NCBI RefSeq assembly: GCF_041381155.1
Contig: NC_091147.1
Span: 13,726,318-13,790,317, forward strand
Reading direction: 5' to 3'
Length of the DNA stretch: 64,000 nucleotides
Source: Argopecten irradians
Lineage: Eukaryota; Mollusca; Bivalvia; Pectinida; Pectinidae
Shown: positions 11,313 through 50,000 of the stretch, in pieces
How positions within the stretch are numbered: the first letter of the stretch is position 1
Layout of the letters: each line of letters begins with the position of its first letter
Program-made: the position numbers and the translations under genes
The notes under the pieces: generated by a model
What the model was told of the DNA's origin: nothing
Databases searched by the model: none
Seen by the model: only the letters and a program-made list of their open reading frames with translations

Positions 11313-11542
11313 TCATCTCACACAGACAACAACCTGGCAAGACCCTCGCAAAGCCGTCAGCACAACTGCCCTCAATAGTCAACAAAGCCCACCGTCTTCT
11401 CAGCAGTCTCCCAATGTATCGATGCAGAACCTTAACCTCGACGCCCTGCCCCAGGGCTGGGAACAAGCAAGCACACCTGAAGGAGACATCTACTACATAA
11501 ATCATCATGAACGCACCACAAGTTGGTACGATCCAAGAATAC
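11313..11542 (+). CDS. yki/YAP1: yki exon: end of WW1 and whole WW2
   Basis: The acceptor is ttgcttgtttcag and the donor is AATAC|gtaagt. The first base (T) completes a split codon, most likely Asn of the WW1 'NH' pair, and is followed by HLTQTTTWQDPR. WW2 has its two signature Trp residues at positions 49 and 71 counted from the first full codon of this exon. The WW1/WW2 linker is rich in Ser and Gln. The exon leaves in phase 1. Confidence 0.95.
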
Positions 11543-14500
11543 GTAAGTATTGAAGGTCTCTCTCTTTTAAAAGTTTAAGCATAGGTGTTATAGACTAATA
11601 TATAGAGAAAGGTAAGGAACTCCTCCATGATGCAAAATTGGGTAATTAATTTCAAAATATCCAGCCCAGATATCTCAACAGCTTCGGTTTGATTTTGATC
11701 TTTTTTGACCGACTGACATCACATACAATGTACTTGACGCTGTTAGAGTTAAATTTGTTTGACAGACCCATACATCAGTCTAAATTCATCAGACAAATTG
11801 GTCATAGCTTGCACTACCAAGCTCCACTCCGATTTACATCCAGTTTGGCATGCTGCGTTACTTAATATTGGACAGTATCCAGGCTACTGAATTGATGTTC
11901 ATTTAATCAATGTTATCATTCTTTATACTTTGTTGAAAGTACAAATGTTCAATGGAAATTTTCATGCTCTTGCCATGAAACGAAATTGGGAAGAATGGGG
12001 GTTGTTTAGCATCAATATCCTTTCCGGTCCTGTCTGGGTTCAATGTCTTGTGTCATAATTCCTGGTGGAAGTGGGCTATTGATAAAAGTGATTTCTTCAG
12101 AGAGATATATGTCCTTTGATCATTGAATAGAAAATAAACTTTGTTGATTTTACATCAATTGGAAACTTACGCAAATAACTTTCGATGGTCGGTATGTAAG
12201 CGTGTGAGGAGTCTTAGAGTGAAACCTGTGTGCCTGGAGAAAACCCACATGATCCGGCAGGTGACCTCTGTCCTTTTCACGTCTGTGCTGGGTATCGACC
12301 CCTGGCCGGCTAGGTGAAAGACAAGCAGCTTAACCACTAAACCACTCGATCACCCTAACATCCCTAACCGATCATTGAATAGAAGTTTATTTGACAACTA
12401 AGGTCTTATAACTATACTATTGTTTATCTCATACCTGAGTGGTTTCTCTGGCTTATTGTCGGTTAGATCTTTCACTGGTGAATTTTGCAAAGTATCGGCG
12501 GCAATCCGTAATAGTGTGTTATCAATAAAGCTTTATCTTGACAAAGTTTAGTTACCACAAACAGTTATTTCTTGGAAATACGCATTGCTATTATCGATAG
12601 TTCACTACAAAGATCAACAGATTGTTCAGAGACAGAAAAATGTAAAAATTCCATGCAGTTGAAATTCAATTTCATCACCTCATTCCTTAAATCTTGTATC
12701 GTTACAGCTGAAAGAATGCGTCAACAAGCTAGAATAAACTCAGTAGGTCCTGGCCCTGGTCAGCAGCGACAGATGGGCCAACAGTTGGCTCCGCCTCCCC
12801 AACACCCACAACAACAACAGCAACAACAACAACAGAATGGGGGAGGCGGCACACAACGTTCACAGCAGGCAAACCTGCAATTCTCTAAACTTCAAATGGA
12901 GAAAGAACGGCTGCGCAAGAGACAGGAAGAAATAGCCCGACAGGTAGCTATTGGGGAGGTATTACAAGAAATATTGTAATTCACGCAAATGTTTGTAATT
13001 AACACAAATTTTGTAATTATTGGTTGGGGAGGTTTTACTAGAAATATTGTAATTAATGCAAATATTGTAATGTTTTGGAGAGCTAGTATTATATTTTCAT
13101 TCTTGGAGAGGTACTTCAGGAAATATTAAACACAAATATGCTGTGATATCATGATTACTATGGTTCATACAACTTTTCTGTAAAGGAAAACTCATTCTCA
13201 AGATGACATCTGTTTTAAGTTTTATGTATATAACCAAAGACGAATATAGCCTTCATCTAGTAGAAATTGACAGGTATTATGATGAGAATTTCACATTGGT
13301 TATAGATGCCAAAGGGTCATTATGAAAATTGAAGTTTTAAGATATTTCTAAAAGAAGGCATTAATCAGTATGCATTACTAGGATAGAGTGAAGCTTATTC
13401 ACAGAAAAGGAAGTTAATTAACTTATTGTTAGCTTATTACTTATTCACCCCTGAAGACACATTTAGACTCTTCTAAATCAAAGGCTAGAACAGTCCATCA
13501 TGGAATTTCAGGGGTGAATGAGTTAAACTGTTATGTAAAGGAACTGTTTTGTTATTAATTCTCTTGTGTTATGTAAATCAATGTAAGTTAAACTTCCATG
13601 TGTTACATAACGTTTTGTCATTTAATTCATACATGTGAAACTGTTTTTGATTGAACATTTTGAAGAATCTTTTGATAGATTGATGCATTTTATTAAGTGA
13701 AGAGTAAAGCAGAGTAACTTTAGTTAAAGGAAGATAGATTAGATAGATAAATAGAGAGCCTGAGCTTAGCATTGTTGTTTTACCTCTAGGAGATGCTCCT
13801 GCGGGCACAAATGCAAGCACAGCAACAACTACAGCAGCAGCAGCAACAACAGGACGCGATACCTGTATCACAAAGTATTAACATATCTCAAGCCAACGAA
13901 ATGACATCTGTCACCGACCCGTTCCTGGGACAAACAAACTCATCAGATCACTCGCGGCAAGAAAGCACAGATAGTGGAGTTGGTATGTTGCATCTTTGTA
14001 GGCTGAATTTTCATTGTTTGCTTCCCACAAAAAAATCAGTTTTATACTAGTTGAAATTTTAGGTATATATGGCTGAGCTACTTCAGTTTTGATTTAATTC
14101 CTGACTGAAAATTACACAATGTTCATTTTAGCTTATGGAGGCAACAGTAACAGTAAAAAAAATAGTACAGAAGAAGGAAAGGGGAGCAAATTCTCTGTTA
14201 AAACATGAGCAATAGGTAAAGGGAACTAATTCAGATTTCAGCGATTCATCAAGGAAAATAGCAATTTCCTTTTAGATAATTGGATGTTTGTACAATTATC
14301 TTGGAATGAAGCTCTTTTGGAAGACTTATAAATTATCATTTTGCATGAAAGTGATTTAGTGTGAATTATGATATAGGATATGACTGAAATGTGTTCCAGA
14401 TATTAACTGTGGAATAGTTCTGGTCCAAAAGCTATATCTTACGAAGCTACACTAAAATAAATGTTCGCGAAGCTACACTAAAATAAATGTTCACAATGCA

Positions 14501-16715
14501 TAAAAAATTGATGATTGGATGTTATAGTTTTCTTCTGTAAATTGAGTCTTCTGTATCTGTTACAAAAGCTAAATGGCAATAATTACTAGTAATATCAAAT
14601 GCTATAAAGCTGTACATATACTCTGATTGTAAGGGGAACGCAGTAATGGAGGTATGTATACAGAGGCGTAGTTATATGTGTGTATGTTGTGTATATGGAC
14701 CCGTCTACTTGAGAACCAGGTGTTCTTTTAAGTTTCTCTTTAAATTATGTTGACTATCAGACCAGTTTCATTGCACATGACTAGTAAATTATATGAAGTA
14801 AAAACCAGATAAAAAGAATGCATGGAAATACAAAGTACAAACACATAGTTAACCTTCTTATATATAATATGGCAACATTTTGATTGCTTGAATATATCAA
14901 ATAATTACCTAAATAAATAATTACTGGTTGCTAGGGAAACATCAACTCACTTGAATACCATAGAAATTATGTCGTGGTTAACAGGGCCCAGTTTCATGAA
15001 CATTCCTCAACTTTAAGGAATTTCTTAATTTAGATTTCCCCATAGAAAAGCATTACAACAGTAAAGGAAAAATCTTCAGTTAAGGAGCCTTCCTTAAAAT
15101 CTGCAATGCTTTCCTCTGGAGAATTTTAAGTTAATGGATTCCTTAAAACTTAAGGAAAATTCGTGAAACTGGGCCCAGATTGTGTAACATCAACGTAGGG
15201 AAGTGATGTAGTGTCTAGCTGGTATCATATGGTGTCATTGGGTTGTGTTGAAGGTGGAATGGGAACTGGGACCAACTATAGCATGCCTAGAACTCCTGAA
15301 GATTTCCTGAGCAACGTAGACGAAATGGACACCCAAGAAGGAGGTAGGTCTATCAAAGTGCAGGTGATGTTTAGTATATCTCTAGATCTTGTCACAGCTG
15401 TACATGTAATATATATAGCCTCAGCTGTCACAAGATGTTAACCTTATTATAGCACGCTTGGCTATTGACCACATGGTCACAACTTGGCTGCAACACACAA
15501 CGTACACAGGAGGTCATCCTTGAATGACCCTGGTTGTTGCAAGGGAGACCGTTCTTAAATGACACTGGTTGTTAATAGAAGATGAATCTAATCGGCTATT
15601 GTGACTTCAAATCTCTGTACGGAAAATATGGAAAAAGAATTACGTTAATTTTGTTCTGATATAAAGTTATTGGCATGTTGTTGAAGTAACATCAGTTCAA
15701 ATCCCAGGTTGAGTATTATGATGTAGCTTCAAGCACAACTTGAGCTAAATTTTAAGGTTCACATCCTAGCATGGACATGATTGTTTCCTGGAACAAGAAT
15801 ATCTGGGATGATCTTAAATGCTGAGCTAGTGACAGTGACCCACAACTTAAAATCCCAGATTTTGTATTCTGTAACAAGAATATTACTTGCCTTGATGGTC
15901 CCGCACTGCAGTAGGACATGCACACTTTTGTAGTGACCAAATGGCCAAGAGCTTGTGTCCATCTCTGTACAAATGATAAAGTTACATCTAATGTATTCTA
16001 GTGTCTGAAATATAGATACATGTATTAACATTTAACTTGTCAATTACAGGACACAGACAGGGGGATTTTAATAACATGGACATTGGAGGTAACATAGGAG
16101 AAAGTGGAGAGCCAAGCAACATGGATAGTGAAGACTTGGTACCTAGTTTACAGGTAAGACAGAAACAGATGAGTTTACATTTGAAAAAGACAACATTAAA
16201 AAAAGACTACACTTTCCTCTTGACTTCACATTTGTATACAGAACTTTCTTCATAATGTAGTAGGAGGGGAAAAATGCACAGCTAAACTGGGATTTGATCC
16301 CAAAACTTAATGTTCAACCTGATCTATCACTGTTCCAATAAAGCCTTATAAGCTGACCTCTTAGTCTTTCAAAATGAAATATCTTTTATGACACGTCAGT
16401 GTAATATTGGCTTGATATATCTTGAGAAAATGACACATTGATGTAGAATGCATATTTCTTTTCTTTTGATTCTGGTTGGAATATTTTGGTTTGATGTCTT
16501 CAAATGTTCAACTTTTAGATACTGTATTCTTTTTATAACATAGAGGGTATAGAGTATAGACACCATTATATGATAAAATTATTCCTTTTTAAGATTCTTA
16601 TTAATTCTTTGGGTTTTTTTCTTTGCAGGAAGATATTAGTAATGAACTGTTAAATGACATGGAGAATGTGTTAAATTCGAACAAGCTGGAGGACAATCTA
16701 CTGACCTGGTTGTGA
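11313..16715 (+). CDS. yki/YAP1: Yorkie/YAP1 transcriptional coactivator, C-terminal part (5' partial)
   Basis: Hippo-pathway coactivator. In the family, LATS/Warts phosphorylation keeps it in the cytoplasm; unphosphorylated protein enters the nucleus and binds TEAD/Scalloped. Six exons join with consistent phases: 11313-11542, 12708-12943, 13790-13982, 15254-15343, 16050-16153 and 16629-16715 (stop TGA). They give about 312 residues in the order: second half of WW1 (HLTQTTTWQDPR), complete WW2 (LPQGWEQ to TTSWYDPR), polyglutamine tracts around a charged helix (LQMEKERLRKRQEE), HSRQESTDSG with the LATS pattern HxRxxS, the family block PRTPEDFLSNVDEMDT, a C-terminal activation segment (EDISNELLNDMENVL) and the PDZ ligand LTWL at the end. 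The TEAD-binding N-terminus and first half of WW1 were not found. The presence of both WW domains and the C-terminus makes the YAP/Yorkie assignment secure; TAZ is a vertebrate duplicate. Confidence 0.95.
12190..12358 (-). repeat. tRNA-derived SINE in a yki intron
   Basis: On the minus strand it starts with a tRNA-like head 'ggtgatcgagtggtttagtg' followed by 'gttaagctgcttgtc' (box A-like), then 'ggggtcgataccc' (box B-like), and continues into the central motif 'catgtgggttttctccaggc'. A tRNA head with internal Pol III promoter boxes joined to an unrelated body is the standard SINE design. It is not a tRNA gene: there is no cloverleaf with acceptor stem, and a body follows. Confidence 0.65.
12708..12943 (+). 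CDS. yki/YAP1: yki exon: glutamine-rich linker and coiled-coil helix
   Basis: The acceptor follows 'gtatcgttacag' and the donor is CAG|gtagct. It starts PERMRQQARIN and carries a polyglutamine run (nine Gln after QHP) written mainly in CAA codons, then a Gly cluster, then the charged helix LQMEKERLRKRQEEIARQ that matches the YAP leucine-zipper-like segment. An ORF reads through the donor for 10 more codons, but the next exon joins cleanly in phase 0 here. A second in-frame GT at 12959 is a less likely donor. Confidence 0.9.
13441..13525. repeat. 85-bp palindromic repeat in a yki intron
   Basis: It starts 'ttattcacccctgaagacac' and ends 'aatttcaggggtgaatgagt', inverted ends of about 16 bp. 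The interior 'tagactcttctaaatcaaag' is shared with the copies at 25638 and 38972. Confidence 0.85.
13790..13982 (+). CDS. yki/YAP1: yki exon: second polyglutamine tract and LATS site
   Basis: The acceptor is tttacctctag. The exon opens EMLLRAQMQAQQQ, continuing the helix of the preceding exon, then a run of seven Gln. It ends with TDPFLGQTNSSDHSRQESTDSG, which matches the region of vertebrate YAP around its C-terminal LATS site (HxRxxS). The donor is GTTG|gtatgt, phase 1. Confidence 0.92.
14441..14492. repeat. 26-bp tandem duplication in a yki intron
   Basis: 'cgaagctacactaaaataaa' plus 'tgttc' occurs twice back to back with one or two changes. It has no coding content. Confidence 0.8.
14984..15178. 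repeat. Palindromic repeat with 'gggcccagtttca' ends
   Basis: The left end reads 'gggcccagtttcatgaacat' and the right end, inverted, 'gggcccagtttcacgaattt', with further inverted similarity inside ('ttaaggaa' blocks). A second member with the same right end is at about 39836-40000. The pair with inverted ends suggests a non-autonomous fold-back or MITE element inside a yki intron. Confidence 0.7.
15254..15343 (+). CDS. yki/YAP1: yki exon: PRTPEDFL block
   Basis: This short exon encodes GMGTGTNYSMPRTPEDF followed by LSNVDEMDTQEG, the family-conserved block. The acceptor 'ttgggttgtgttgaag' is weak because its pyrimidine tract is short, but it is the AG that gives the right phase. The donor is GGAG|gtaggt. 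The exact 5' boundary is the least certain in this gene. Confidence 0.85.
16050..16153 (+). CDS. yki/YAP1: yki exon: acidic transactivation segment
   Basis: The acceptor is gtcaattacag and the donor is TTACAG|gtaaga. It encodes GHRQGDFNNMDIGGNIGE and then SNMDSEDLVPSLQ, equivalent to the vertebrate YAP stretch 'GMNIEGEELMPSLQ'. It is rich in Asp/Glu/Asn/Gly and leaves in phase 0. Confidence 0.92.
16629..16715 (+). CDS. yki/YAP1: yki terminal exon with PDZ-binding C-terminus
   Basis: The acceptor is tttttttctttgcag. It encodes EDISNELLNDMENVLNSNKL and then EDNLLTWL, followed by TGA at 16713-16715. The terminal LTWL is the conserved PDZ-domain ligand of YAP, used in the family for ZO-2 and NHERF-type partners and for nuclear targeting. 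Confidence 0.96.
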   Translation, partial: EDISNELLNDMENVLNSNKLEDNLLTWL

Positions 16716-24263: not shown

Positions 24264-24296
24264 TCAGCGATTGAGGATTCTGAAGAAATATTCAAC
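24264..24296 (-). CDS. NME7: NME7 terminal exon
   Basis: Very short coding exon. The acceptor is acttgttttccag, then V-E-Y-F-F-R-I-L-N-R and stop TGA (24264-24266). It corresponds to the family ending 'VQYFFKIL..'. It was recognised from its match to the expected C-terminus and the phase-0 join. Confidence 0.9.
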   Translation of the reverse strand, partial: VEYFFRILNR

Positions 24297-27200
24297 CTGG
24301 AAAACAAGTAAGATACCACATTACTCACAAAATCATGTATAAATTATCTTTAATGATCATCTGGACATTATTAAAGATGCTCCATTGCCGACAGAGCTTA
24401 AATGATATTCATGATTTAAACAATAATTGGTGTTTAATTGTGTATATATCTGTCTAATTAACACAAAAATACTATAAAATAATTTATCTTCCCTTTTGTG
24501 TGCATTGCACAATCAGTGTATTTTTTCGGGATGCAATTAATTATTTTTATACATATTCCAAATGTATAATTTTATAATTTATTATGCGCCCCCCCCCCCC
24601 CCCCCCGAAGTTTCATAATGGACTGTTCCACTCCTTGATTTAGGGAAGTCTAAATGTGTTTTCAGGAGAGAACAGGTAAATATTGTACCTCTAGTACTCC
24701 ATCCTCTGGTAAGTCTGTGCAGTGTACAGCGTTCTGTATCTTGTCAGTTCCAAACTTAGCTCGTAACGTCCTGGGCCTCAAGTGACGAGCAATTTCCTAT
24801 CAACAAACAGACGAAAATTTCAACTAACAAAGAGTGTTGAAAACTGAACCACTTGTGTATGTCGTTTGAAAACTAATGAAAGCAAAACTTTTATTAAGTT
24901 TGAAATTTGACAACCTATAAATTGGTTTTCTATGATATGTGTATTATATATTCAATATTACAGAGTTATCTGCCCTTGTGTTTAGGTATTGATTGTAATA
25001 TCATGAGCCTGTAGGTGTATTGTCAAATTTTTAAACGAAAATGACGTAAACTAAATGATGATGTCAAAACTGATACCTTCCCACAAGGAGATAACTCTGT
25101 GACATACAAAAACAGAATACCAGTAAAAGTTTTCATTTGCATCTTTTGAAATCTGTATTTGTGTATACCCCTATGATTCCACCAGTGATATTACTGATCA
25201 TATACCCCTTAGGGATTCTAGTACTTACAGGGTCTGTTGGGCCAACCATTTGTCGGAAGGTGACGGGCGCATCCTTGGCACGAACCTCTAATGCTATACA
25301 TGGTCCAGATGTCAGTTCGTTAACCATGGCACCATATTCCTGGACGACACCCTTGTACACCTCGAAAAACTCCTCGGCGTTGGCCTTCTCCATGTGGAAC
25401 ACCTGTAGCATGGAGATCTCAAAGCCTGTCTCCATGATTTGGCTGATGATTTCACCTGCATTTCCTGTTGGGAAATAGATTGCTAGTTAGTTAAATTGGT
25501 TCAAGTTTGACATTTTTTGTCCAATATTCTACATTATAAAAGCAGTAAAGATGATAGAAGCATCTCTTCCTCTGTATAATGTTTTATTTAAATATCTTCC
25601 CTGTATAATCTCCTATTGCGATAACCCTGCTGCCCTAAACTCATTCACCCCTGAAGACACAGTTAGACTCTTCTAAGTCAAAGACTAGACCAGTTCATTA
25701 TGAATTTAGGTGGGAATGAGTTAGGGATTGCCTCTTCTATAAAACATGATGTATTATCAACAGCTAAAACACATGTCATTTTCTGTAAAGTTCATTATTA
25801 AATGTTAACTTAGATAACTAAAAATAAAACTCTCATTATTATTTTACCTGATTTGACTGCATGAGGCTTGATAACACAGCATGTGCACTCGCTGAATTTG
25901 GCTGTGCTACGTTGTACTTGGCTTCCATTGGATGGGAAAAAGAATTCAATTTCTCTTGCTGCTGAACCAATACTATCTGAGCCATGACAGGCATTCCTGA
26001 TAGCATCTGTAACAATGAAAATAACACATATAACCTTATATGGATCTGATATGTGAAAATGACCCAAAATATGTACTGAAAATACAACATATTTTTGTTG
26101 TGTATTTTGTTTTCATGCCAAGTGACATTTCATTTAATTTCATGATTTACAGGTAAAAAGTTCAATTGCACTAGTAGTTGATTTTTTTATAGCAAACTTA
26201 TGTTCATGAATTCAATTTGGATGAGACAATGATTTGGCTTACATTATCTCCCAGTTCAGAAAACTCTTACGGGAGTTATGAGTTATCTCCCTTAATTATT
26301 TCAATTTCCAATACTATGTTTATATTCTTTTTCAAAATGCAGCATATACCGGTACATATTTAATATCGAGTGGTTTCTTTTTATACAAATACTGACAAAT
26401 TAGATTTAATATAAGCACAAAATAAATTTCTGAGCATCTACTAAGAGCAATAATGTTTCTATTTGATAGAAATATGAAAATCAGAAGATACAACTGAATC
26501 TATCAAGATTTGTCCTGCGTTACAGAGATAGAATGTGACTTACCTGTCCCAAATCGAGCCCTAATGGAGTTAGGTGCCTGTTCTCGTGCCGCAGCTGGGT
26601 CAGTCGGTCCTAGGAGGTCCGCCCACTGGGAGACACAATCTGGTCCCATCAGTTCTATCGCTATTAGTGGACCACTAGTCATGTAGCTCAAGAGATTACT
26701 GTGAGAAAAGTCAAAGACAAGAAATTTAGAATTATTTTTACCAAGGATAAGTTAGGTCTATCTTCTGTATGGAGCCCTACCACTCCAATTTTAATATCAT
26801 ATCCTGGTCTTCCAATGGACCCCCATTGACACCCTCTCTCCCATCTCAACCCTACATTGCTACAATACACTTACTCAAAATATGTTTTCCCTTGATGCTC
26901 CTGATAGAACTCATAGGCTTCGTTACGAGTCAATTGGCACATCTTCATGTTGGCAATCAGGAAACGGTTCTTAAACAGTAGATCGAGGACCTGGCCCATT
27001 TTGGGAACAGCATCTGGTTTTATTAAGCCAAGCGTCCTGAAATAAAAGTTTTTAAAGGTGATTAAAGCAATTATTCAGTTTCTGAAGATTACAAATAATT
27101 ACATCATGTCAGTTATAGCAGTGTACTGATCAATCTCTTTTAACAATTTATCATTTTATTCAATCGATGAAAAATTGGATAATAAAAAGGTAAATCAGTA

Positions 27201-29683
27201 AAAAAAAGAAGAATAAAGAGCAGAAAAACACCTCAAAGAACACAAAAGTTTTATCAATCTCATTTTTGTCTTATATTCTGTGTATTTTTTTAGGAAAATT
27301 GCCATTCTATGTAAACTAATTATAAAGTTTATTACTGAAGTGAAGGGAGGTAACTATATTACAATATAATTTTTTTCATTTGTGTTAAAGGAATTTCTTT
27401 AACTTATTAACATGTAATGTCTTTATTGATGGAGATTTGATACTAAATGAATGCATTGTACAGTTATCTACGTATTATGTGAACCATTTTGACGAAACCA
27501 AATTCATTCATATTTATTTTGAAACCAGTTGCATACCTCTCTTTTTTGTTTGCTAGTCGCCTTCTTGTAAACTCATCACCGTAGTCTACAAAATTAAGCT
27601 GTCTAGAGAATACATTTAGAGTGCTGTTGATGTAAAGGTCCTCAAGTCGCAGATCATCCATCTTCGTTCTTTTCAAAAACACTCTGTGGTTTTTGACATC
27701 AAACTGAAAATTAACGATTTAAAAATATTAAATATGATCTGTCTCTTCAGCTTGAATGATTATCACTAAGATTAGTATTTTCCCTAGTTTTCAACAGAAA
27801 AACATTCAAAGCCACAAACTTATTAATCTGAAACATATTTATGAATGATGTCACTAATTATAGTCTGAACATGTAGTATTAAGTTTTTAGGATATCTTAA
27901 AACAGATTAGTTATAATATTTTCCAATGATACAGTGTGTAAACAAGTATGGAGTTTTAGATAGCAGTGATTTTTCAGGATATTTTGTGAAAAAAGTTTTT
28001 GACACAAATTGGGAATTTTTAATTGCAAATACACTGTAGTGGTTTAAGGGAAAAGTTAACCAATACTGAACATGGTGTTATACCCAATAGGTAATTTATT
28101 ATTGTAGAACTGTTTTATTTTATGATATATACTTGTTTTTACATTGACCTGTATATCATCAACAAAACAATCTTTTATCTTTTTTTTCCCTCAGCAATTC
28201 AATTAGGGAATTTTTCATTGTAATTGGGAAAAATATAGGGGGGTTTGGCATTGGGAATGGGGTCGTTTACCGACCCCAGTTATAGAAGGAGAAAAATCAC
28301 TGAATAGCATACCATCTCCACAGTTTTGTCCTTCACATAGTACATGAACTGGTATCTGCGTTTGAAGGCAGCATGGGGATCATACCACTCTGCAATAAAG
28401 CAGTATCTGTCTTCACAGCCCTCACTCTGAAAGGAAACAACGGAGGTAATTCAAGTTTCTGAAGAACAATTTCGAAAAGTACAATTTTGTTATCTCATTT
28501 TGTTTCCAATGTTTATCAATGTTACCATCATTCTTTGAATCTAAAAGTATATAAAAATCGTGAAAGCCTTTCTATATCTATGATAAAGAATCACCTCAAA
28601 GTTCCAGTTAATATGAATACCCATACAATATAAATGTACATGCATGTCAGAACAGACAATTTGTGTTCATGTTGTAAATGCAGAGTAGCACTAATGAGTA
28701 TACATGTATTGTACTCTAAAAATATTTTCTCAAAACAAAAAGGAATATAAAGTTTCTGCTCCTTTATATATATAATGGACAATTCCTATGGTCAACTGAA
28801 CTGACTAAGTATGTAGTGTATGGTGGAAGTTAGGTTCAACGTCACTAAAATTCTATTACAGGTCATAATGTGCATCTTTTACTAAATGTGATTTGATGTA
28901 AATACACGTATTCAGTTTCATTATACATGTACAGTAGCTATATAGCTAGTCACAATGCCTAAATTTAGGGGGATTTCCTCAGCAGTTTTTCTTTGAGGAA
29001 GGTGTCAACCCCAGGATGTGATCGATGCATACTCAGATATGTACTTTTTTTCATTAATTAAAAAAAAAATTAACAAAAATAATGATCGCGTGTAATGAAA
29101 GCATTTGCTTAGCTATGCACTATATGCAGATAACTGAAGAAACACCGTTCATCTAAGCAGTTGCAGATTGTCAGATATCCAGTTACCAAGTAAATTAAAT
29201 TTATATATACATCTTCACATAAAACTCACATGATGTCGGACAGTCTTGCTACTGGTAATTACTTGTTTCTTATAAGGAATCTTAATCGTTAGCATACAGT
29301 TGAGCTTTTGTACATATCATTCAATTACCATATTAACCATGATATTATTAGTGATCATCAATATCTGTGCATAAACTCTATCAGCTATATATTGCTGTAC
29401 AAGATAAACAAAACACACATTTTTGGTTTCGTTAATGTTGCTTCTTATCAGTTTGGCGATATTGTCTGCGTCAGTAATGTTAATAATGTGATACCAATGT
29501 GTGAATTTATGTTAAAAATAATCACCATGTGATGAAAAGTAAATCTGTGATTCAAAACATGTTCAAACTTCGCTGACAAAGTCAGAAAACAGCTTGCATT
29601 TTCCATTCAAAATCATGCCACTAGTAACATGTTTCATCCTAGTTATTAACATATATGTCAACGTAAGTGTTTCATCTTACCAT
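24264..29683 (-). CDS. NME7: NME7, nucleoside diphosphate kinase family protein
   Basis: Ciliary/centrosomal member of the NDK family; in vertebrates it is a gamma-tubulin ring complex component and an axonemal microtubule inner protein. Exons in transcript order: 29681-29683 (ATG only, tentative), 28313-28426, 27537-27703, 26875-27036, 26544-26698, 25848-26006, 25229-25464, 24689-24796, 24264-24296. The phases agree throughout and give about 378 residues (human 376). Domains: DM10 at about 2-91 (DRYCFIAEWYDPHAAFKRRY), NDK A at about 95-235 with NACHGSD (His at about 208), NDK B at about 240-370 with NAVHCTD (His at about 357). Both domains therefore keep the catalytic-type histidine. The C-terminus is VEYFFRILNR. 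The gene is head to head with blzf1. Everything from exon 2 onward is secure; only the initiator exon is inferred. Confidence 0.96.
24372..24589. repeat. MITE-like element 'taaagatgctcca' family, truncated copy
   Basis: It begins 'taaagatgctccattgccga' like the complete copies at 40152-40530 and 57030-57391, shares 'aacaataattg', 'attaacacaaaaa' and 'tttttcgggatgcaattaat', and then breaks off before the far inverted end, shortly before a poly-C run. It lies in an intron of nme7. Confidence 0.7.
24590..24606 (+). repeat. Poly-C run
   Basis: About 17 consecutive C at the junction between the truncated element at 24372 and a partial copy of the 85-bp palindromic family. Homopolymer length is error-prone in assemblies. 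Confidence 0.9.
24607..24668. repeat. Partial copy of the 85-bp palindromic family
   Basis: 'gaagtttcataatggactgt' then 'tccactccttgatttag' and 'aagtctaaatgtgttttcag' match the interior of the 85-bp family. The usual left end 'actcattcacccctgaa' is replaced by the poly-C run. Confidence 0.65.
24689..24796 (-). CDS. NME7: NME7 exon 8, active-site histidine of domain B
   Basis: The acceptor is gtttgttgatag. It has 36 codons, EIARHLRPRTLRAKFGTDKI then QNAVHCTDLPEDGVLE, with the active-site His in NAVHCTD. The reading frame runs on into 'VQYLPVLS' and a stop, but the donor GAG|gtacaa and the matching terminal exon give the family C-terminus, so splicing is preferred. Confidence 0.95.
24960..25102. 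repeat. Inverted-repeat element with 'cagagttatctgccctt' end
   Basis: The left end 'cagagttatctgcccttgtg' and the right end, inverted, 'cacagagttatctccttgtg' are nearly the same, and 'ggtat' continues the match. It is a compact MITE-like element of about 143 bp in an nme7 intron. Related 'gagttatctgccctt' sequence occurs near 1395-1440 and 'gagttatctccctt' near 26280. Confidence 0.6.
25229..25464 (-). CDS. NME7: NME7 exon 7, NDK domain B
   Basis: The acceptor is tttcccaacag. It encodes (G)NAGEIISQIMETGFEISML, then EEFFEVYKGVVQEYGAMVNE and SGPCIALEV, ending in MVGPTDP. EVYKGVV and SGPC(I/V)A(L/M)E are typical of domain B in NME7. The donor is GACCCT|gtaagt, phase 0. Confidence 0.95.
25638..25724. 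repeat. 85-bp palindromic repeat in an nme7 intron
   Basis: It starts 'actcattcacccctgaagac' and ends 'gaatttaggtgggaatgagt'. The ends are inverted with mismatches, and the interior 'tagactcttctaagtcaaag' is shared with the copies at 13441 and 38972. Confidence 0.8.
25848..26006 (-). CDS. NME7: NME7 exon 6, active-site histidine of domain A
   Basis: The acceptor is ttcattgttacag. It encodes (D)AIRNACHGSDSIGSAAREIE then FFFP, containing the NDK active-site motif NACHGSD, followed by the inter-domain linker and the first strand of domain B (CTCCVIKPHAVKSG). The donor is AAATCAG|gtaaaa, phase 1. Confidence 0.95.
26544..26698 (-). CDS. NME7: NME7 exon 5, NDK domain A core
   Basis: It encodes (D)NLLSYMTSGPLIAIELMG, then LLGPTDPAAAREQAP and SIRARFGT. 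SGPLIAIEL and the LLGPTDP / SIRARFGT blocks are NDK core motifs. The donor is GGGACAG|gtaagt, phase 1. Confidence 0.95.
26875..27036 (-). CDS. NME7: NME7 exon 4, start of NDK domain A
   Basis: The acceptor is cttttatttcag. It encodes (R)TLGLIKPDAVPKMGQVLDLL and then FKNRFLIANMKMCQLTRNEA; LIKPDA is the NDK fold's first strand motif. The donor is TTTTGA|gtaagt, phase 2. Confidence 0.95.
27537..27703 (-). CDS. NME7: NME7 exon 3, DM10 domain end
   Basis: The acceptor is tcagttttcag-type and the donor AAAGAGAG|gtatgc, phase 2. It encodes FDVKNHRVFLKRTKMDDLRL and continues through EDLY, NVFSRQLNFVDYGDEFTRRR to ANKKER, following the family sequence closely. Confidence 0.95.
27962..28304. repeat. 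Possible inverted-end repeat in an nme7 intron
   Basis: The left end has 'agcagtgatttttcagg' and the right end, inverted, 'attcagtgatttttctcctt'. Inside are 'aattgggaattttt' and the hairpin 'ggggtcgtttaccgacccc'. No second copy was seen in the window, so the boundaries are tentative. Confidence 0.4.
28313..28426 (-). CDS. NME7: NME7 exon 2, DM10 domain start
   Basis: On the minus strand: acceptor tttcctttcag, donor GAGATG|gtatgc, 38 codons in phase 0. It encodes SEGCEDRYCFIAEWYDPHAA then FKRRYQFMYYVKDKTVEM; IAEWYDP is the signature opening of the NME7 DM10 domain. Confidence 0.95.
29681..29683 (-). CDS. NME7: NME7 putative initiator exon (Met codon only)
   Basis: Exon 2 begins in phase 0 with SEGCEDRYCF and has no upstream Met. 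The nearest suitable upstream structure is AACAAAAATG|gtaagatg on the minus strand, a good donor directly after an ATG with a purine at -3. This gives M-SEGCEDRYCFIAEWYDP, close to the family N-terminus. A separate unseen exon is possible. Confidence 0.5.
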
Positions 29684-29760
29684 TTTTGTTTCATTCACTG
29701 TTGTAATCCAAAGAACAATCGCTCAAATTCGATCTCATCAATGTCCCTCCAAAGCCCGGT

Positions 29761-29775
29761 GTTGTTGTTGGCAAC
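29761..29775. promoter_or_regulatory. RFX X-box-like motif
   Basis: 'gttgttgttggcaac' fits the X-box layout RYYNYY-N3-RRNRAC with a perfect GGCAAC half site. It is 78 bp upstream of the putative nme7 ATG. RFX factors drive ciliary genes through such sites, and NME7 is a ciliary gene. It could fall within the 5'UTR, as the start site is unknown. Confidence 0.5.
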
Positions 29776-29810
29776 AGTCTGTCCACTGTTAGGACGTAAC
29801 AATGATTTTG

Positions 29811-29815
29811 ATTGG
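29811..29815 (-). promoter_or_regulatory. Inverted CCAAT box (NF-Y type)
   Basis: Plus-strand 'gattggctg' is CAGCCAATC on the minus strand, 128 bp upstream of the putative nme7 ATG and 36 bp beyond the X-box-like site. CCAAT boxes are frequent in bidirectional promoters. Confidence 0.4.
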
Positions 29816-29825
29816 CTGACCAGTC

Positions 29826-29871
29826 TACTTCCTTTCTAGATCAAGGGAGGTAATAAATCAACAGGAAGTGA
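29826..29871. promoter_or_regulatory. Paired ETS-type sites
   Basis: 'acttcc' at about 29827-29832 (GGAAGT on minus) and 'aggaagtg' at 29863-29870 (plus) face opposite ways within 45 bp. ETS cores are typical of bidirectional housekeeping promoters; chance occurrence is possible. Confidence 0.35.
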
Positions 29872-31920
29872 GTCCATAATTTCCAACTTCGGCGAATGAT
29901 GAAAATTGTGAATTTACCGGGATAACTTGCGCTCTGATCCGTATTTTAATGTAAGTTTCCAATAATATCATCATTTATAATGATCAGCAGATAGGGACAA
30001 AACAGCCCCACTTTTTTTAACATGATGTCCGTTTTTGAGGTCTCTTATTAGAGTCGATCTGTCATTCATCTATTTGTCTGTCGCACCTCAGCTAGCATAT
30101 CACTCATCATTGTCTGTAGAAACAGAGGGAAATAGGTATGGTCATCACTTTAGTATGACATTAGGTTCTAAAATATGACTTTTTTTTTTTATCTTAACAT
30201 GAAGTTCATAAGTACAATTTAACTGTTTGATAATTGTTACTTGAACCCTGCCTAATACTCTTGAGCTGTTCAGAAAACAAGACCTCCAAATAAAACATTT
30301 TTTATCACCATTTGTCTTAGTGCAGCGAACCGTGACGACCTTATGATATGTGAATGATGTCAATCACCCTACGGCAATTGTCATTTCTGACCATCAAGTG
30401 TACATGTGGATAGAGATACTTACTTAATGTACAATATATGTTATTTATTTAAGCATTGATGTCAATATTTTTTAACTTCATCGGGGTATGACAGAAATTT
30501 GGTTTGCAAACTGTGTGAATCCACGTAGTTACATCAATGCTAACAATGAATTTTTCAGACTACTTGATATCACAAGATATGTTTAAACGTACAATTCCAT
30601 TGATTTTCCAAAGGATTATTATTTCTAAATCAATACGCAACGTCAACGTCTCTATTGTGACTTCATGATAATGTCTGCTTTTCGCGCCAATCTCAAACCT
30701 TTTCTTCATAGTATATGAAGAAAAAGAATCTACCAATAGGAAAGTCAGATTTAGTATGTAAACAAATCAAAATTAATAATATAGATTTTTTATCAGAATA
30801 ACTTAATATGTACTGTATAGAAACACCTAGGTTTTTTTTTGTTTAACTTTCGCAAGCGCACAGGCATACTCGTTACATCATACTTCCATGGTTAAATACA
30901 TCTGCTAGTTGCCGAAGGTAAATCGAGTAAATGAAAAGAGTTACTCTTGGCCACATAAGTATCTATTTAGTATGAAAATCATTCGCAAATGTAAATTTAC
31001 CCGTGTTAACTAATACTTAATTTTGCTGTAGTTCAAACACCCAGATAATGTAAAATCATCGAAAACACAGAAGATGAACCGACAACACATGTAGTCTGAC
31101 CTTTACCTTATCAGATTTAACCAATCACAAAGCAAAGTTGCCAGCAAAATTTTACATACATTGTATGTGGTAGCATTGAAGTGCCGTCCGTTATGTACTT
31201 TTTTGGCATGTGCGGAAATGCCAACACCAAAGTTTCTAATAAATACAAATTCAGAAATTGATTTGTACTTATTATACTGGATTATGGATAAGATATGTTT
31301 TCAGTTCTTAGATATAGGTAGGTCTCACCAACAACGATACAAAATAAGTTTGCAATCTTAGAATTTAAGTAACTTATATTCGCTAATCCCAGAAATGATG
31401 TTCTCACTAAAAACATGTCTGTATATAAATAATTTCATTTGAAATTTTAACATTTTAAGTATATCCGATAATCCTATTTGACGTCTTGGATTTTTGTGTG
31501 AACAGAATCGAAAGTATGACGCATATGGGATTCTGTACATGTTTTTCACTGACACAATACCACAAAAACTGGTGACGTCACGTACACATAAGAGAGTTGA
31601 CCCTGATATACAACCTGAGGTAAACAACAATAACTAATTTAGATAAAATATAGCAGGGAAATCCACTTAAGTCATACACTAATGTTTTTTCTTCCAGGTT
31701 TTGTTCTTATTTCGGAATATTACGTGCTAATATCTTAGCTTAATACCTCAAAAACTGGGGACTGGCTGGTACAGTAGTATGCTGTTTAGCTGAAAAAGTT
31801 AATTCAAATTTTGCTGTAATTATATAACTTATGGGAAATTTCAAAAATTTCCAAATTTCGCAATAAAAATTAATTTTTTTCTTATTGTAAATCAACATGT
31901 ACATACAGGTCATGATCATG

Positions 31921-32170
31921 CAGCGACCATTTCTTGCTATCGCCAAGTACCAATTCTCGGCATTGCATGCCATGTGTATTTGTATGATTACACACAAATT
32001 TTCAAGCAATATTTTGTAGGAACCTGCATGGTAGCGTCTTCTATCAGAAGATGACTTTATTCATGAAAATTTGGGTGTAACCATATATACACATATACAT
32101 GTACATATATAATATGTACACATGCGATGGCGAGAATGGGTACTTGGTGAGAATTGGTCACCTGTCAGTA
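31921..32170. repeat. MITE-like element, 'gcgaccaattctt' family, copy 2
   Basis: It shares ordered blocks with 21972-22150. Here the inverted ends are clearer: 'cgccaagtaccaattctcg' on the left, and 'gagaatgggtacttggtga' plus 'gagaattggtcacctgtca' on the right. Confidence 0.65.
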
Positions 32171-33053
32171 GATCGAGTAATAGAAAATTAAAAATCATGA
32201 CACTGACTTAACTTTTGCAGTTTGAGATATTCTTTATAACCTTGAGGTATCAATTTTTGTGCACCCTAACTGTCAGGCTGTGAAAAAGAAATAAAAGAAG
32301 CTCAAACTTATCATTATCCATATAATATTATTTACTCAATACTGATGACCAAAACTAGGGCATATTTACCACATCTCCTATATACATGACAGTTGGAATT
32401 ACTTCATTGTCCCATGTATTCATTATTTGTGCCTCAACACTTGTAAGGCATACAGTGTTCAATCTACGATTATTTTTCGTGGGCCCTTTTCAATAGTTTT
32501 TGTGAAAACAATGGGTTCCACAGTGTAATAGATACCCATTCCCAGAAATTTCATGGGTCCTTTTAAAATTCTGTAAGTCCAGGACTCACGATGCGCACGT
32601 AGATTTATCACTGGGCATATATTGACAGATAAGTCCTGCGGTCAATCTGTTGTTGCAGGTTAATTGGAATTCATTGTACAAAATCGAAGAAAATACTTGT
32701 TTAAGCGTTTTGCGGACTTTACCCTGGTGTGGATAATATACGGGAAATTTATTATGGTACAAAACTTGTGTCCAAATATAAAAGTGTTTTTGGTAGATTA
32801 AAACTGGCTAGCAGACTTTCTTTTATCGTCATTTTTCAATGATAAGGAATAAAAAGCCGTTCTGCTATCTAATTATATCTGGATTAATGATATCATTGCT
32901 TTCTGTGAACATAACATCAACCAGAAATCAATGTGTACAGTTAATGATGTGTGTGAAAATGGATCACCTTGGAAAAGCATTGTTAATGAACTGAAACTAA
33001 CTGATGTTTATACAGGTCTGCTTCTTTATTCTTGTAGAAACTAGAAAGCAGAC

Positions 33054-33569
33054 ATGGACTCTGCTGTACCAATGAACCCACCGTCAAAACGGGTGACCAG
33101 AACACAATCTATGACAAGTTTGAATGGCAAAGGAACAATACTGCTGAGAGAAGCAAAGCCAAAATACAGCTTCCTAACCCAAAAACCCACAGCAGTTGTA
33201 GTCTCAACTCCTAGTATGCCAAGCATAACAGATCTGGGAAACACCGCCAGTCCACCTAAGCCTATCAGTAAGGTAGAGCCGCTTCCGGGAAAAGCCAATC
33301 CACTTTCTGGAAAGGTCATTCCACTTCCTGGAAAGGTCAATCCACTTTCGGGAAATAGTGCCACCAATATCCAACAGACAAGTTCAAGTCCGAATCTCAA
33401 TTCCACAGAGCTGAAAAAGTTTCCTTCTCTGGAGTGTCTGCCATTTCCTGATTTATTGGGGAATCAACTAAGCTCCCTCCAAAGTCAAAATACAGAACTA
33501 AAAGATGAGAATGAAAGACTGAAGAAAGAAATGGAAAACATGAAAAGACAGCTTGACGTTCAGTTTCAA
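33054..33569 (+). CDS. BLZF1: BLZF1 first coding exon
   Basis: 172 codons after the acceptor ttctttattcttgtag (exon starts 33038). It starts MDSAVPMNPPSKRVTRTQSM, is basic and Ser/Thr/Pro-rich, contains the PL(P/S)GK heptapeptide repeat, and enters the coiled coil at SQNTELKDENERLKKEMENM. The donor is TTTCAA|gtatgt, phase 0. Confidence 0.93.
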
Positions 33570-36454
33570 GTATGTGTGATCAATAAGTTTTCAAATCAAG
33601 TGCAAAACAAAAATTATGTGTGTGAGTAATACAGTAGACGTTTGCGACCACCTCTATATAATGACCATCTGGTTAATAAGATTACTTTTCTAGGGTCTCG
33701 CAAGACCAATTCCAACACAATTCAAACTGTATATATACTAGTATATAAACACCACCTTGATATAAAGACCATTTTCCTCTGTCGCTTGAGTGGTTTTTAT
33801 AGACAGGTTTGGCTGTACTGATATATAGCTTGTTCAAAATACAATTAAGCTTTACAAAGGTAAGTTAAGTGTTAAATCTAACGGTGTATAATGTCTGTGT
33901 TATTTGCTTTTTCAATGTTAGAATTGGTCATATGAAATACATTTAATTAATACTTAAGTTAGACATTATGATTACTATTTTAAAATGCTGTAAGACTTTT
34001 TTTGTTGATTTTTCAGGTAAATACTGAGCTGAAGAAACTACTGGTAGCCTCAGTCGGGGATGACTTACAGTTTAGAGTAGAGAACCTTGCCAGGTATGAC
34101 AGCAGTATTATTTTTTCTATAATGCAGTCATCTGCTTTTGGTACCTGGTACTTGATACAAGTACCTATTGTTGTATTATTTGCAGAAGATCTTGCTTTAT
34201 TAGAAAATGATATACAAATGTCACACCAATCAATATCTGCTCTTAAGAGAAACTAATTTTATGAATAAGACCTAAATTGTATTAACCTAACCTAAGAATC
34301 CTGTGTGTGCTAATCACTACAGAGCATCACGACAGCCCTGCTTCAGCAGGATTAAACAAATCTGCACTTTCTCTTCCGTTATTGTTTGCTTGTATTTGGC
34401 CCTGATTTCTACAATAATGGCTTAGAAATATGACTTAGAAATCCCGATTCAAAAGGCTCTAACAAATAATACCTATATTAATTTGTGATATATGGTGCAG
34501 AGACAGAGCCCAGCTTTCAACAGAGATAGGTACGTTTGCTAAAAGACGAACAGAAGACTATGAACATATAGACAAAGTTTCCATCCAAGCTGACATGTGG
34601 AGGAGCAAGTTCCTTGCAAGCAGGTAATTAACATATATTTACTTATATAAATGCAGGGGTTTCATTATCTTTCAGGGGAGGCGTTGCAATTGCAAATTCA
34701 GGGGGTAGTTTTCTGTACTATCTGTATGCTATCTAATGTAATCGAGACCAAATCTGATTGGTTTAACAGGCAAAAAGTACTGGTTACCGCCTGATATTGA
34801 AACCCCTGTAGATGTTTATTTAGATATACTAACATATCACTGAACTAATGATTTGAGATTTATCGGATGTAGACTCTGAGCGAAACATACTTTAAGCTCG
34901 GACCTTCACACATGCCTTGAATCTGAATAATGATTACCCTGACCTTGCTCTCACTTGATTTATTCATAGACTTATAACCTCTGCCTTTTAGTTGTTCACT
35001 GAATGTTAATGGTGATCACGCTACATTTGCTCTGACTTGATTGGTTCACAGAATTGTAACCTTTGACATTTGACCATTAACCTTGATTGGATTTGCATAC
35101 TTTGATCATTTTAACCTATAACCTTTATTGGTTTGCTCACTGACTTAAGTTTTGTTCACATATTCACAGTGATAATAAGATTTTAATTTGAACTCTGAGT
35201 CTGAATATCAGTTGTTTAACTTATGACCTTTTGTTGCCAGGGTGATGATTGATGAGTTAGCTTCGTCTAAAGCCTACTTGTCTATGCTGAGTCAGGAATC
35301 ACAAAGTGCTCTCCAACAGATGCTGAATGAACGTCATGAAATACGCTCAAACCTCCTGGAAACGTACAAGTATGTAGTTATCAAATCGCCTAAGAAAGTT
35401 AAGAGCACTTGTTTTATGATTCAATTAGCAATAAAGAGATAAATATCGTTTAACAGTCTTTACTAATGATTCTTAATCTATTCCACTTGACTTGTGTCTC
35501 ACTCAATGAGTACATGATAGAGAATTATAAGAAAACTTGTTTATATATAGACATAACATACATTGGTTTCATTACAGATCCAATTATGTATTGTTCACTG
35601 AAAATATATATGTAATGTTATCGTTTATCAGGACTCTACAGCAGGTCCGGTCAGCATTTGACCCCTTGAACTCCCAGAAGTCAATGTGTGTGGCATCAAA
35701 CAACAGTTTAGATCTGGCTCGGACAAACCAGCGATTGACAGAGGCCATTCGGTATCGACTTCTCCCCAGCCATGTGACCCTGGACACCGTTGTTAACATG
35801 GACCATTGGACAGATAGTCTGACACTGGCAGAGTCACGTGCAAACGAAGTATGTATTACACTGAAATGTTGTTTAGATTTGTTTATTGATTCTCAGGATT
35901 GAAGGGGACTGTAGTTCATATTTTAGTGTCCCCTCCTTCATTATCTTGTCCTGGCTCTTCTATATTCCTATGTCAGTCCTTCTTTTCTGATATTATTACA
36001 TACTATAAACATACAGATTTTAGCAGTAATCTTACATTTGCTAATATTACGTCGTTATACTAATGGTATTTGTATTTTCTGTGTATGTTTTAGATAGCTT
36101 TTATGTGTGCATTCATTGTTGTGTAAACCTATTCAAGATTACTTTAGGCCATTAAAGGTATAATTACAGTATTTTGCGTAATTTTCTACTTACTTTTCAG
36201 CAATCTAACAAAACTATGTAGATGATTGCTGATAATTAATACTGAAATAACTATATCCTTACTTAGATATTTACTTTAAATCATTATTATTTCAGTTATT
36301 GTCCAAGAAATTTGACCCAGAAGATGGTCAGGTTGCAATCACACTCCGTGATCCATCCATCAACGTTATCGACAGATTCCACCCTTTTACTCGCTTTGAT
36401 AACCTGACTCTGAATTGTTGTGTTAAGTGTCAGGGAGAGATGTTCGCTGTTTAA
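33054..36454 (+). CDS. BLZF1: Golgin-45 (BLZF1), Golgi coiled-coil protein
   Basis: Golgi matrix protein that, in the family, binds GRASP55 and Rab2 and is needed for Golgi structure and secretory transport. Coding exons: 33054-33569, 34017-34093, 34501-34623, 35241-35369, 35632-35848, 36296-36454 (TAA). The phases agree and give about 406 residues (human 400). Residues 1-140 are low-complexity and Pro/Ser-rich, with a four-unit 7-residue repeat (76-103). A coiled coil runs from about 145 to 300 and includes the family blocks ELKKLLVASVGDDLQ and ADMWRSKFLASRVMIDEL. The C-terminus RFHPFTRFDNLTLNCCVKCQ followed by GEMFAV matches the family GRASP-binding tail. ATG 33054 is the first in the exon after the acceptor at 33037, which indicates an untranslated exon upstream. 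Confidence 0.95.
33279..33362 (+). repeat. 21-bp in-frame tandem repeat in blzf1
   Basis: Four consecutive 21-base units encode PLPGKAN, PLSGKVI, PLPGKVN and PLSGNSA (residues 76-103). The period is exactly 21 bp and the units differ by a few bases each, so this is an in-frame minisatellite. Confidence 0.9.
33638..33832. repeat. Repeat of the 'tataaagacca' family in a blzf1 intron
   Basis: It contains 'gcgaccacctctatataatg', 'tgatataaagaccattttcc' and 'gtggtttttatagacaggtt'. The same phrase set occurs at 6600-6765 ('ctataaagaccacccaaggg', 'gtggtctttatgcacaggt') and 22855-22985 ('cctttatagacaggt'). Confidence 0.55.
34017..34093 (+). CDS. BLZF1: BLZF1 exon: LLVASVGDDLQ block
   Basis: The acceptor is gttgatttttcag and the donor GCCAG|gtatga, phase 2. 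It encodes VNTELKKLLVASVGDDLQFR and then VENLA, nearly identical to vertebrate golgin-45. Confidence 0.95.
34501..34623 (+). CDS. BLZF1: BLZF1 exon: coiled coil and WRSKFLASR
   Basis: The acceptor is atatatggtgcag. It encodes (R)DRAQLSTEIGTFAKRRTED then YEHIDKVSIQADMWRSKFLA. The D(M/V)WRSKFLASR block is the strongest golgin-45 signature. The donor is GCAAGCAG|gtaatt, phase 2. Confidence 0.95.
35241..35369 (+). CDS. BLZF1: BLZF1 exon: coiled-coil continuation
   Basis: The acceptor is cttttgttgccag. It encodes (R)VMIDELASSKAYLSMLSQE then QMLNERHEIRSNLLETY. The donor is TACAA|gtatgt, phase 2. Confidence 0.93.
35632..35848 (+). CDS. BLZF1: BLZF1 exon: variable linker
   Basis: The acceptor is tatcgtttatcag. 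It encodes (K)TLQQVRSAFDPLNSQKSMC, then ARTNQRLTEAIRYRLLPSHV and ends ESRANE. This region is less conserved than the flanking exons but keeps the LA(L/R)TN(H/Q)(K/R)L-type segment. The donor is AACGAA|gtatgt, phase 0. Confidence 0.9.
36296..36454 (+). CDS. BLZF1: BLZF1 terminal exon, GRASP-binding tail
   Basis: The acceptor is attattatttcag. 52 residues plus TAA at 36452-36454. It ends RFHPFTRFDNLTLNCCVKCQ and GEMFAV. The CC-x2-C cluster (residues 395, 396, 399) corresponds to the cysteines that in mammalian golgin-45 join the zinc site with GRASP55, and the last residue is hydrophobic as a PDZ ligand requires. Confidence 0.95.
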   Translation, partial: LLSKKFDPEDGQVAITLRDPSINVIDRFHPFTRFDNLTLNCCVKCQGEMFAV

Positions 36455-46846: not shown

Positions 46847-47082
46847 CTACTGTCGCCCCTGGATATGAAATGGCAGCATCAGAGACTGCCGTAGACCATT
46901 GTCCATTGTCATGCTGTGTTGGGTTTCAATGTGACGTCGAAGGTCGACTTTCCTCTGAAAGGCTCGACCACATTTGTCGCACGCGAAAGGTTTGAATCCT
47001 GTGTGTTTCCGACTATGTGTGATAAGGTTAGACGATTGGCTGAATGCTTTACCACACTGCAGACATTTGTGAGGCTTCTCAC
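46847..47082 (-). CDS. gfi1: gfi1 terminal exon, zinc fingers 5-6
   Basis: The acceptor is tttgtgttttcag. It encodes (G)[19 protein letters not shown] then [20 protein letters not shown] and [16 protein letters not shown] 22-residue tail, ending in PFHIQGRQ, follows before TAG (46847-46849); vertebrate GFI1 ends soon after ETQH, so this tail is longer. Confidence 0.96.
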
Positions 47083-50000
47083 CTGAAAACACAAATTTGC
47101 ATTATCAATTTCTTGATAAACCTTAGCAAATAAATAAAACCATAAACAAAAAATATCCAACTTCAATACAATTATTTTATACATCGAAGAAATCAAAATC
47201 ATTTGCATAAATGCATAAATCTGTATGAAAGGAATAACATTTAAAAAAAGAGGTAATATTCTATGGAAATAATGTCAGTATCACCTGCATTTTAATTTGT
47301 TCAGTTTGGATGTTAATAAATGGATGCTTATTGCTTTGGATGCTTATTTTTAAAATCTTAGTAACTGAAGTGGAACTATTTTCCTACACAGATCATCAGG
47401 TCCGTATACTTTATACTCACAACGACCTCAAAAGTGCAAAATTTTCCATTTGTATAATTGAGCTTTGATTAAAAACTACCAAGACCTAAACATAATCTAA
47501 TACATGTGTGTCTAAACGAGTATGCAATCCCATGCTACGCGTAATTTGTTTCAGGAAAGACCACATCAAATCAAGTATTATGCATCTGATGAATTAATAA
47601 TTTATTCCATTCATTCAACCCTGGCCTATTCTATTGTTCACAACGCAAAATCAAAAGCGATGAAATACCACCGTTTCCCTCTTCAAACACCCAGACGACT
47701 GAAACAATTTTGTGATATTATGATCTTGCTTTTGAAACACTAACTGATTGTCTGTATGACGTCACACACGACAAAGCACGTGACACCTAAAGGTCAATGG
47801 TAATATGAGAAAAGGAAATTCATTTCCCTGATTTCAAACTCGTCATCTAGTCTGCAGCACTGATATTGATGACGTCCCCCGCGGTAATGGCGGGAAAGGT
47901 CACGTGGCTTTAAGGTCAGGGAGTGATTGTCCTTGCGGATTTGGACGGTGCTAACTTCGCGTGATTTTTAGATAAATGCTGGCATGATAGTAATACTGAC
48001 ATTTAGAAGCTTAAGCTCAATTTCGGACCAGTCCTAGCCATGTCATTATAAATTAATGATTTTGTATTGTCTGAACGCTGCAGAAATGATAAATCGAGAC
48101 CAATCTCTTAACCATACAATCTTATAATACAAAGTAAGAAAACTTTGGTTAGTCGGCCTTTACGTCCTCGACCAGGGACATAATAAACCACATATACTGT
48201 ATGCAGTGCGTTGCAGTGTACTTATCTGTATGTTTTGGGAGGCTGCGGTATACTGGAGTTGTGTCAGTTTGTTTAAATAATGGAAATTATTGCCTATTTC
48301 ATAGCGCTATCTCAATGAAACATACCAGCACGATCACATTATACTGACATTAGGTGTATCAGTCATTCTACTGACATTAGTAAGTAAAGGTACAACATTT
48401 TGCATAGCAACTTTAAAAATAACCTTCAAATTGCTAATTGGTATGACATGAAAACAAAACGAATAAAATGACAAAAATCATAATATTCAATGTAAAAGAG
48501 TAGAAAAAACGTATCAACACATTCTATCGATAAAAAAGATATATAGGGATTGAATGTATTTTACTAATTATCATAGCGGCTATGAATAGCAGAAGCTATC
48601 TACATAACGCGCTCCACGGAAGATATGTAGATAGCTTCTGCTATTCATAGCCGCTATGAAAATTAAAAAAAAATACATTCAATCCATATATTTACATTAG
48701 AATAATTTATGAAAATAAAATTATTGAAAGGTTTTTATATTATATTTAAAATTATGACACCCATATACGACGAGAAATGAGATTAATGGAACAGCTAGAT
48801 GACGAAGTCGTTCTGCAACGTCGCGTTTTCAAGCTTCCGCCTTCCGGTCGAATTTTTTGTTGTTGCAAATGGCAAACGATAAACAAGAAATATAGTTAAA
48901 ATAAGATTTGATTGACTTATTACAGTAAACCCAAGTTGATTCTATATAAAGAAATAACGCATTAGATATTATACATTAACATATTGTAGGGGACTATTTT
49001 TATTGATATGAAACTGGCGCATTGTTTGAAATCAGCTAATCGATGCACGAGAATCGTTGTATTCATGTAGCGTATTCTTAGTGTTTTCATAGGCAAATGT
49101 TTGTTTTCGTCAGTTGGTTGATTCATATAGTGACGAAACACTCAGAATGTAAATATAGGTTGATATAGAGTCTATTAGGATTAAAAAATTATCTTGCTTT
49201 GTTTTTGTTAGGATTCATAATATAAAAAATATAGTATTTCAATTAATCCATATGTAGAAGAAAGCGTTACGCTCACCAATGTATGGAATAATATTATAAA
49301 CGACGTGTCATTATTTACGATATGGGATGATAAAGGGATTTTATAAGCCAATCAAAATGTTCGTTACATGCAAGATTAAATGCTTCTGATATATTGTACA
49401 CTATACATTGATCTAACTAGTAATATGATGTGTAGTGTAGAGTTCCGTCGATCTCTGTACCAAATCATGTGCTGATGATTTTGACCTTTACAAGCGTTTG
49501 TGCGAGATTGCATGCAAAGTACTCCAATCAATTAGTGTGACTGCAAGGGCCCCCACAGGACGTCATGTGCCGAACAGCTTTATGTAAAATAGATTTGATG
49601 GAAATTTTCGGTACATATATCCGATACACCGAACGTGCCCAAAGTGTATTTCCGCAGTATTAAGCTATCATAATATGGGATATTTATTTTTGAAATGTCC
49701 TTTTTTGATGAATAGGTGTTTGATGTGATGATTACATAACAATACAACAAAACGATAACTAAAAATAGAAATAAAAGAAATTAAAAAATATTAAGAGAGC
49801 ACAGACATGTCCTCTTAGCCCTAAACCCTCATACAATTGAATTTAGCATACAGTTGACCTCGAGGTCAATACCATTATGATACAATGACGGAAAATGTAG
49901 AAGGTCGCTATGATAAATAAAAATAAAAAAACCCCAAAAAACCCAACATCTGATATCAACTAGTTAAAACAAAGTTGTCAGTCTTTAAATAATTGTTGGA

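Follow-up and report, generated by a model that had tools for sequence, protein, structure and literature searches.

A head-to-head nme7–blzf1 gene pair in Argopecten irradians, conserved with mammals, and its possible shared promoter region

The nme7 and blzf1 genes of Argopecten irradians are immediate neighbours with their 5′ ends facing, and comparison with mammalian gene orders supports an old head-to-head pair that has been conserved in both lineages. We analysed a stretch of 64,000 nucleotides (positions 13726318–13790317 of C14 in an 846-Mb genome; hereafter the window, with position 1 as its first letter). A preliminary description of the window had placed nme7 on the minus strand and blzf1 on the plus strand, and both the exon models and the homology bear this out. 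The coding starts are ∼3.4 kb apart (3.1 to 3.8 kb with alternative nme7 first exons), and the two genes are divergent whichever nme7 start holds. The limits proposed beforehand, 24264–36454, are exact on the right, whereas the left limit lies ∼400 bp beyond the nme7 stop codon at 24662. Inspection by eye of the open reading frames in the gap, not all of which were used as queries, revealed no further recognizable gene, and a transcript is possible there. The pair is a further example of the conserved divergent pairs, a kind that is already known.

The nme7 gene contains seven homology-backed coding exons on the minus strand, running from 28426 to 24662 with in-frame joins and GT–AG borders: exons 2 (28426–28313), 3 (27703–27537), 4 (27036–26875), 5 (26698–26544), 6 (26006–25848), 7 (25464–25229) and 8, which includes the stop codon (24796–24662). 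As judged from its translation, this set covers nearly all of an NME7 protein. A PDB search with a 375-residue draft returned the NME7 chains 8snb (E = 1.7e-154) and 7ung (E = 4.1e-148), which we take to be the sea urchin and human proteins, respectively; the top matches carry the names nucleoside diphosphate kinase or NDK 7, and the product is 57% identical to the NME7 stretch of 7ung. Pfam assigned PF25364 (E = 3.1e-36) and two stretches of PF00334 to the 376-residue model, and the N-terminal NDK7-type PH domain together with two NDK domains identifies the product as NME7. No stray eukaryotic relatives were found in IMG/VR using one nme7 protein as the query, a search with a reach of close relatives.

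Exon 2 runs into an upstream stop without any in-frame ATG, and an additional upstream coding exon is therefore needed. Its coding part is predicted to comprise only the ATG at 29683–29681 (minus strand), followed by the donor GTAAGA with a score of 7.4 on splice-site profiles built from sites of the window together with a general profile. This ATG is preferred because it results in a short N-terminus, as in most of the matched NME7 chains. Between 28.44 and 31.0 kb, 70 combinations of an ATG with a donor have the phase required, and three of them, amounting to two first exons, outscore it. The minus-strand alternatives use ATG 29295 with a donor after 29230 (score 8.6) and ATG 29974 or 29971 with a donor after 29918 (score 8.0). 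The gene would thus start near 29.2–30.0 kb.

The blzf1 model on the plus strand starts with the ATG at 33054 and consists of six coding exons (33054–33569, 34017–34093, 34501–34623, 35241–35369, 35632–35848 and 36296–36454), which encode 406 residues. A segment of 25 residues that stops one residue short of the C-terminus matches the golgin-45 chain 5h3j_B (E = 9e-9), the single PDB match of blzf1 up to an E value of 1. This C-terminal peptide contains the CCxxC motif that characterizes BLZF1/golgin-45, in which the CCxxC peptide binds GRASP55. The central block aligns at 35% identity over 286 columns with a provisional human golgin-45 reference sequence, and no Pfam family was matched by the model at an E value of 0.001. 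A 21-bp tandem repeat, in approximately three copies, is also present in the first coding exon (33288–33355, plus strand).

Outside the pair, a YAP/Yorkie-like gene (11260–16300, plus strand) displays a WW domain, glutamine-rich stretches and PDB hits among both NEDD4-type and YAP1 chains. A GFI1/senseless-like gene (46850–56025, minus strand) contains zinc fingers at 46850–47101 and 50113–50892; the Gfi-1 chain 2kmk is its sixth PDB match, behind other zinc-finger proteins. Both names are presumptive. Inside the limits of the GFI1-like gene, an open reading frame without a Pfam match (55741–56025, minus strand) reads MPKSFLVRN, which resembles a SNAG repressor motif. The CpG observed/expected ratio is ∼1.0 at 46.8–64 kb versus 0.3–0.5 in most of the measured stretches to the left (1–43000), which is a marked switch, and a 36-bp tandem repeat (4.2 copies, 93% matches) is located at 62834–62983.

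Our comparison of bilaterian microsynteny comprises the present genome and mammals as described in published papers, which are cited here for the excerpts and abstracts consulted. The gene order in the cow is given as ATP1B1, NME7, BLZF1, CCDC181, SLC19A2 and F5, with tRNA entries omitted (PMC5395145), and NME7, BLZF1 and CCDC181 appear in the same sequence in an excerpt from PMC4831767. Human NME7 is described with BLZF1 upstream and ATP1B1 downstream (PMC12524336), and the 3′ end of human BLZF1 is reported to overlap C1orf114 (PMC2151771), which is CCDC181 according to a published abstract. The position of BLZF1 upstream of NME7 and its 3′ overlap with C1orf114 imply a head-to-head arrangement in mammals, so the `as in human' orientation asserted in the preliminary description is upheld. 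Thus, in the excerpts used, the mammalian locus (human chromosome 1; cow BTA16) shares both the adjacency and the relative orientation found here, whereas the outer neighbours differ, with YAP-like and GFI1-like genes in the window versus ATP1B1 and CCDC181 in the cow. BLZF1 is also found beside CCDC181 in snakes in the part of PMC13320979 consulted; in zebrafish BLZF1 and C1orf114 are placed on different chromosomes (PMC2151771), which indicates that the CCDC181 side of the pair is not fixed. As a rough estimate, any given pair would be adjacent under random gene order with a chance of ∼2/20,000, or ∼3e-4 for the three neighbouring pairs of the window, a figure that could rise by a factor of perhaps ten or more if ancient linkage groups have been kept.

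A cluster of four predicted factor-binding sites (29761–29870) has its near edge 78 bp upstream of the ATG preferred for nme7. It contains an X-box-like (RFX) site, GTTGTTGTTGGCAAC (29761–29775), with one half-site that fits the X-box consensus (one of five such places in 64 kb), an NF-Y-type CCAAT box (29808–29817, minus strand; one of 20) and two ETS-type sites, AGGAAGTA (29826–29833, minus strand; one of seven ETS-type sites) and AGGAAGTG (29863–29870, plus strand). The combination of two ETS sites, a CCAAT box and an X-box-like site within 120 bp occurs at a single place in the window and in none of 200 first-order Markov simulations, for a motif set that was picked after the sequence had been read. 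Likewise, no ETS site had both partners within 110 bp in 229,001 bases sampled from 23 further loci of this genome. On a panel of nine motif classes, the best 200-bp score of four sites was equalled at 47757 and reached in seven of the 200 simulations, three distinct classes were reached in 54 of them, and in the background loci the count rose to 5–6 sites, drawn from one or two classes. A second dense cluster (CRE, two E-boxes and E2F; 47757–47901) is located inside the span of the GFI1-like gene, and another ETS pair (33281/33322) is within a blzf1 coding exon. A genome search with 29690–30300 matched only itself.

Ciliary and bidirectional promoters typically carry ETS, CCAAT and X-box motifs, and the nme7 promoter is probably located at 29.75–29.87 kb; with the ATG at 29974/29971, the cluster would instead fall within intron 1. 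NME7 is counted in the ciliome in the abstract of PMC8067621. Overall, the cluster argues fairly well for a promoter of nme7 itself and less strongly for one that both genes share. The preliminary description had also suggested that a shared regulatory region, or a block that resists separation, kept the pair together since the bilaterian ancestor: its conservation holds for mammals, with different outer neighbours, and a shared region is plausible, the motif cluster being just upstream of the preferred nme7 ATG and ∼3.4 kb from the blzf1 coding start.

We infer that blzf1 transcription begins somewhere within ∼29.87–33.04 kb. The bases at 33038–33053 (plus strand) lead from a possible acceptor to the ATG; the acceptor score of 8.3, reached by 64 of the 3313 AG sites, is at the level of the weaker known acceptors (range 6.2–13.2), and a 5′ intron ahead of the ATG is therefore likely. 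The top-scoring plus-strand acceptor of the window among these 3313 sites is at 31698 (score 13.8), a hint that a spliced plus-strand transcript originates upstream of 31.7 kb. A weak candidate for a non-coding blzf1 first exon is 29870–29950 (plus strand; left end arbitrary), with the donor AAT/GTAAGT (score 7.7, the sixth best in the gap, behind those at 30485, 29867, 31317, 30135 and 32726). A rival start has a CRE, TGACGTCA (31573–31580, plus strand), followed by the donor GAG/GTAAAC after 31619 (score 7.2, ninth). Splice-site scoring across the gap does not discriminate among these candidate first exons.

Sequence similar to ∼0.75 kb of the gap is present at other places in the genome. 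A dispersed repeat (30439–30790) has its main matches at 75–86% identity on contigs C1–C16 (40 of 3608 candidates scored), and a second repeat-like stretch (30836–31241) has one copy, at 80% on C2, among the matches listed. Several copies of the first repeat (∼350 bp) also match on the opposite strand at query positions 144–229, suggesting a palindromic, MITE-like element, and an inverted-repeat search in the window copy identified just one 16-nt pair. The gap was considered as a CpG-retaining promoter zone, with a peak of 0.99 at 30301–31100 (the highest 800-bp value in the first 37.5 kb); this was withdrawn as promoter evidence because the repeats carry the peak. In background DNA, too, a value of 0.9 or more is reached in 25% of 527 stretches of 800 bp. 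A second pair of a CCAAT box and an RFX half-site (31119 and 31137) was dropped since it is inside the second repeat.

We tentatively propose, at somewhat less than even chances, that nme7 and blzf1 are an ancestral pair sharing one promoter region; the proposal is advanced on account of the motif cluster and of the pair having stayed together as its neighbours changed. The divergent pair would have come from the common ancestor of A. irradians and mammals and would have been held while its outer neighbours changed. One promoter region at ∼29.75–29.95 kb would be common to both genes, with the X-box-like, CCAAT and two ETS sites driving nme7 leftwards and a non-coding blzf1 first exon rightwards. 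Splicing would then join this first exon, across a blzf1 intron of ∼3.1 kb that is partly repeat, to the exon that carries the start codon (33054). Splitting the pair would cut one gene from its promoter, and this constraint would keep the two together. About equally likely is an ancient pair in which each gene has its own promoter, that of nme7 near 29.2–30.0 kb and that of blzf1 near 31.6 kb (at the CRE) or ∼33.0 kb, kept adjacent by slow turnover of gene order. The CRE at 31573 with its usable donor at 31619 and the distance between the coding starts agree with two promoters, and an excerpt from PMC8851819 calls it unclear whether microsynteny reflects function or merely low recombination; however, inertia alone does not predict that the pair stays while its outer neighbours differ from those of the cow, and, of the motifs scanned, the densest grouping within the gap adjoins nme7 and is not at 31.6 kb. 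In human liver cell lines with interferon, NME7 and BLZF1 belong to one co-expression module of 346 of 6168 genes (PMC8433181, in part), which would occur by chance in ∼6% of cases and is only suggestive of co-regulation; NME7, not BLZF1, is one of seven genes with raised levels in every one of the three interferon sets in the same excerpt. No shared promoter is described in the excerpts of the literature that name both NME7 and BLZF1, and closely spaced divergent pairs are reported as not enriched in fishes or non-vertebrate animals (PMC2871058, in part).

A third reading, in which the pair is a bystander anchored by enhancers of one of the two genes, or of the YAP-like or GFI1-like neighbour, that lie in the introns of the pair, is distinctly unlikely. 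Such arrangements are described in an excerpt from PMC8851819 and a GFI1-like zinc-finger gene is located downstream, but both nme7 and blzf1 are compact here and the cow pair is adjacent despite other outer neighbours. That the adjacency arose independently in the A. irradians lineage and in vertebrates is highly improbable: the one window with both genes is the whole non-mammalian sample, which leaves room for coincidence, yet the rough estimate under random order is small (see above) and the orientation agrees as well.

Golgin-45 is a Golgi protein. NME7 is associated with the centrosome, the γ-tubulin ring complex and the cilium (PMC11742093, in part). A rather unlikely extension of the shared-promoter proposal is that an RFX/NF-Y/ETS promoter has been conserved from the bilaterian ancestor onwards and acts on both genes, one concerned with ciliary microtubules and the other with Golgi tethering; it would thereby couple cilium building to Golgi organization. 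Head-to-head pairs that have long been kept although their products share no obvious function offer a natural way to test whether gene order is preserved by shared promoters rather than by joint function, and NME7 with golgin-45 would be a clean case.

Compared with ciliary genes under RFX/X-box control, nme7 likewise has an X-box-like site, 78–92 bp upstream of its preferred, predicted ATG, but differs in that only one half-site of this predicted site fits the consensus. Relative to other conserved divergent pairs, the nme7–blzf1 gap is similar in having ETS and CCAAT sites between the genes, a feature typical of such promoters, whereas the products have no obvious common function. The usual limit of <1 kb applies to the transcription starts, which are placed here at approximately 29.2–30.0 kb for nme7 and at ∼29.87–33.04 kb for blzf1 by prediction. 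As in HSPD1/HSPE1, a conserved divergent pair given in an excerpt from PMC2871058, the head-to-head order has been long kept.
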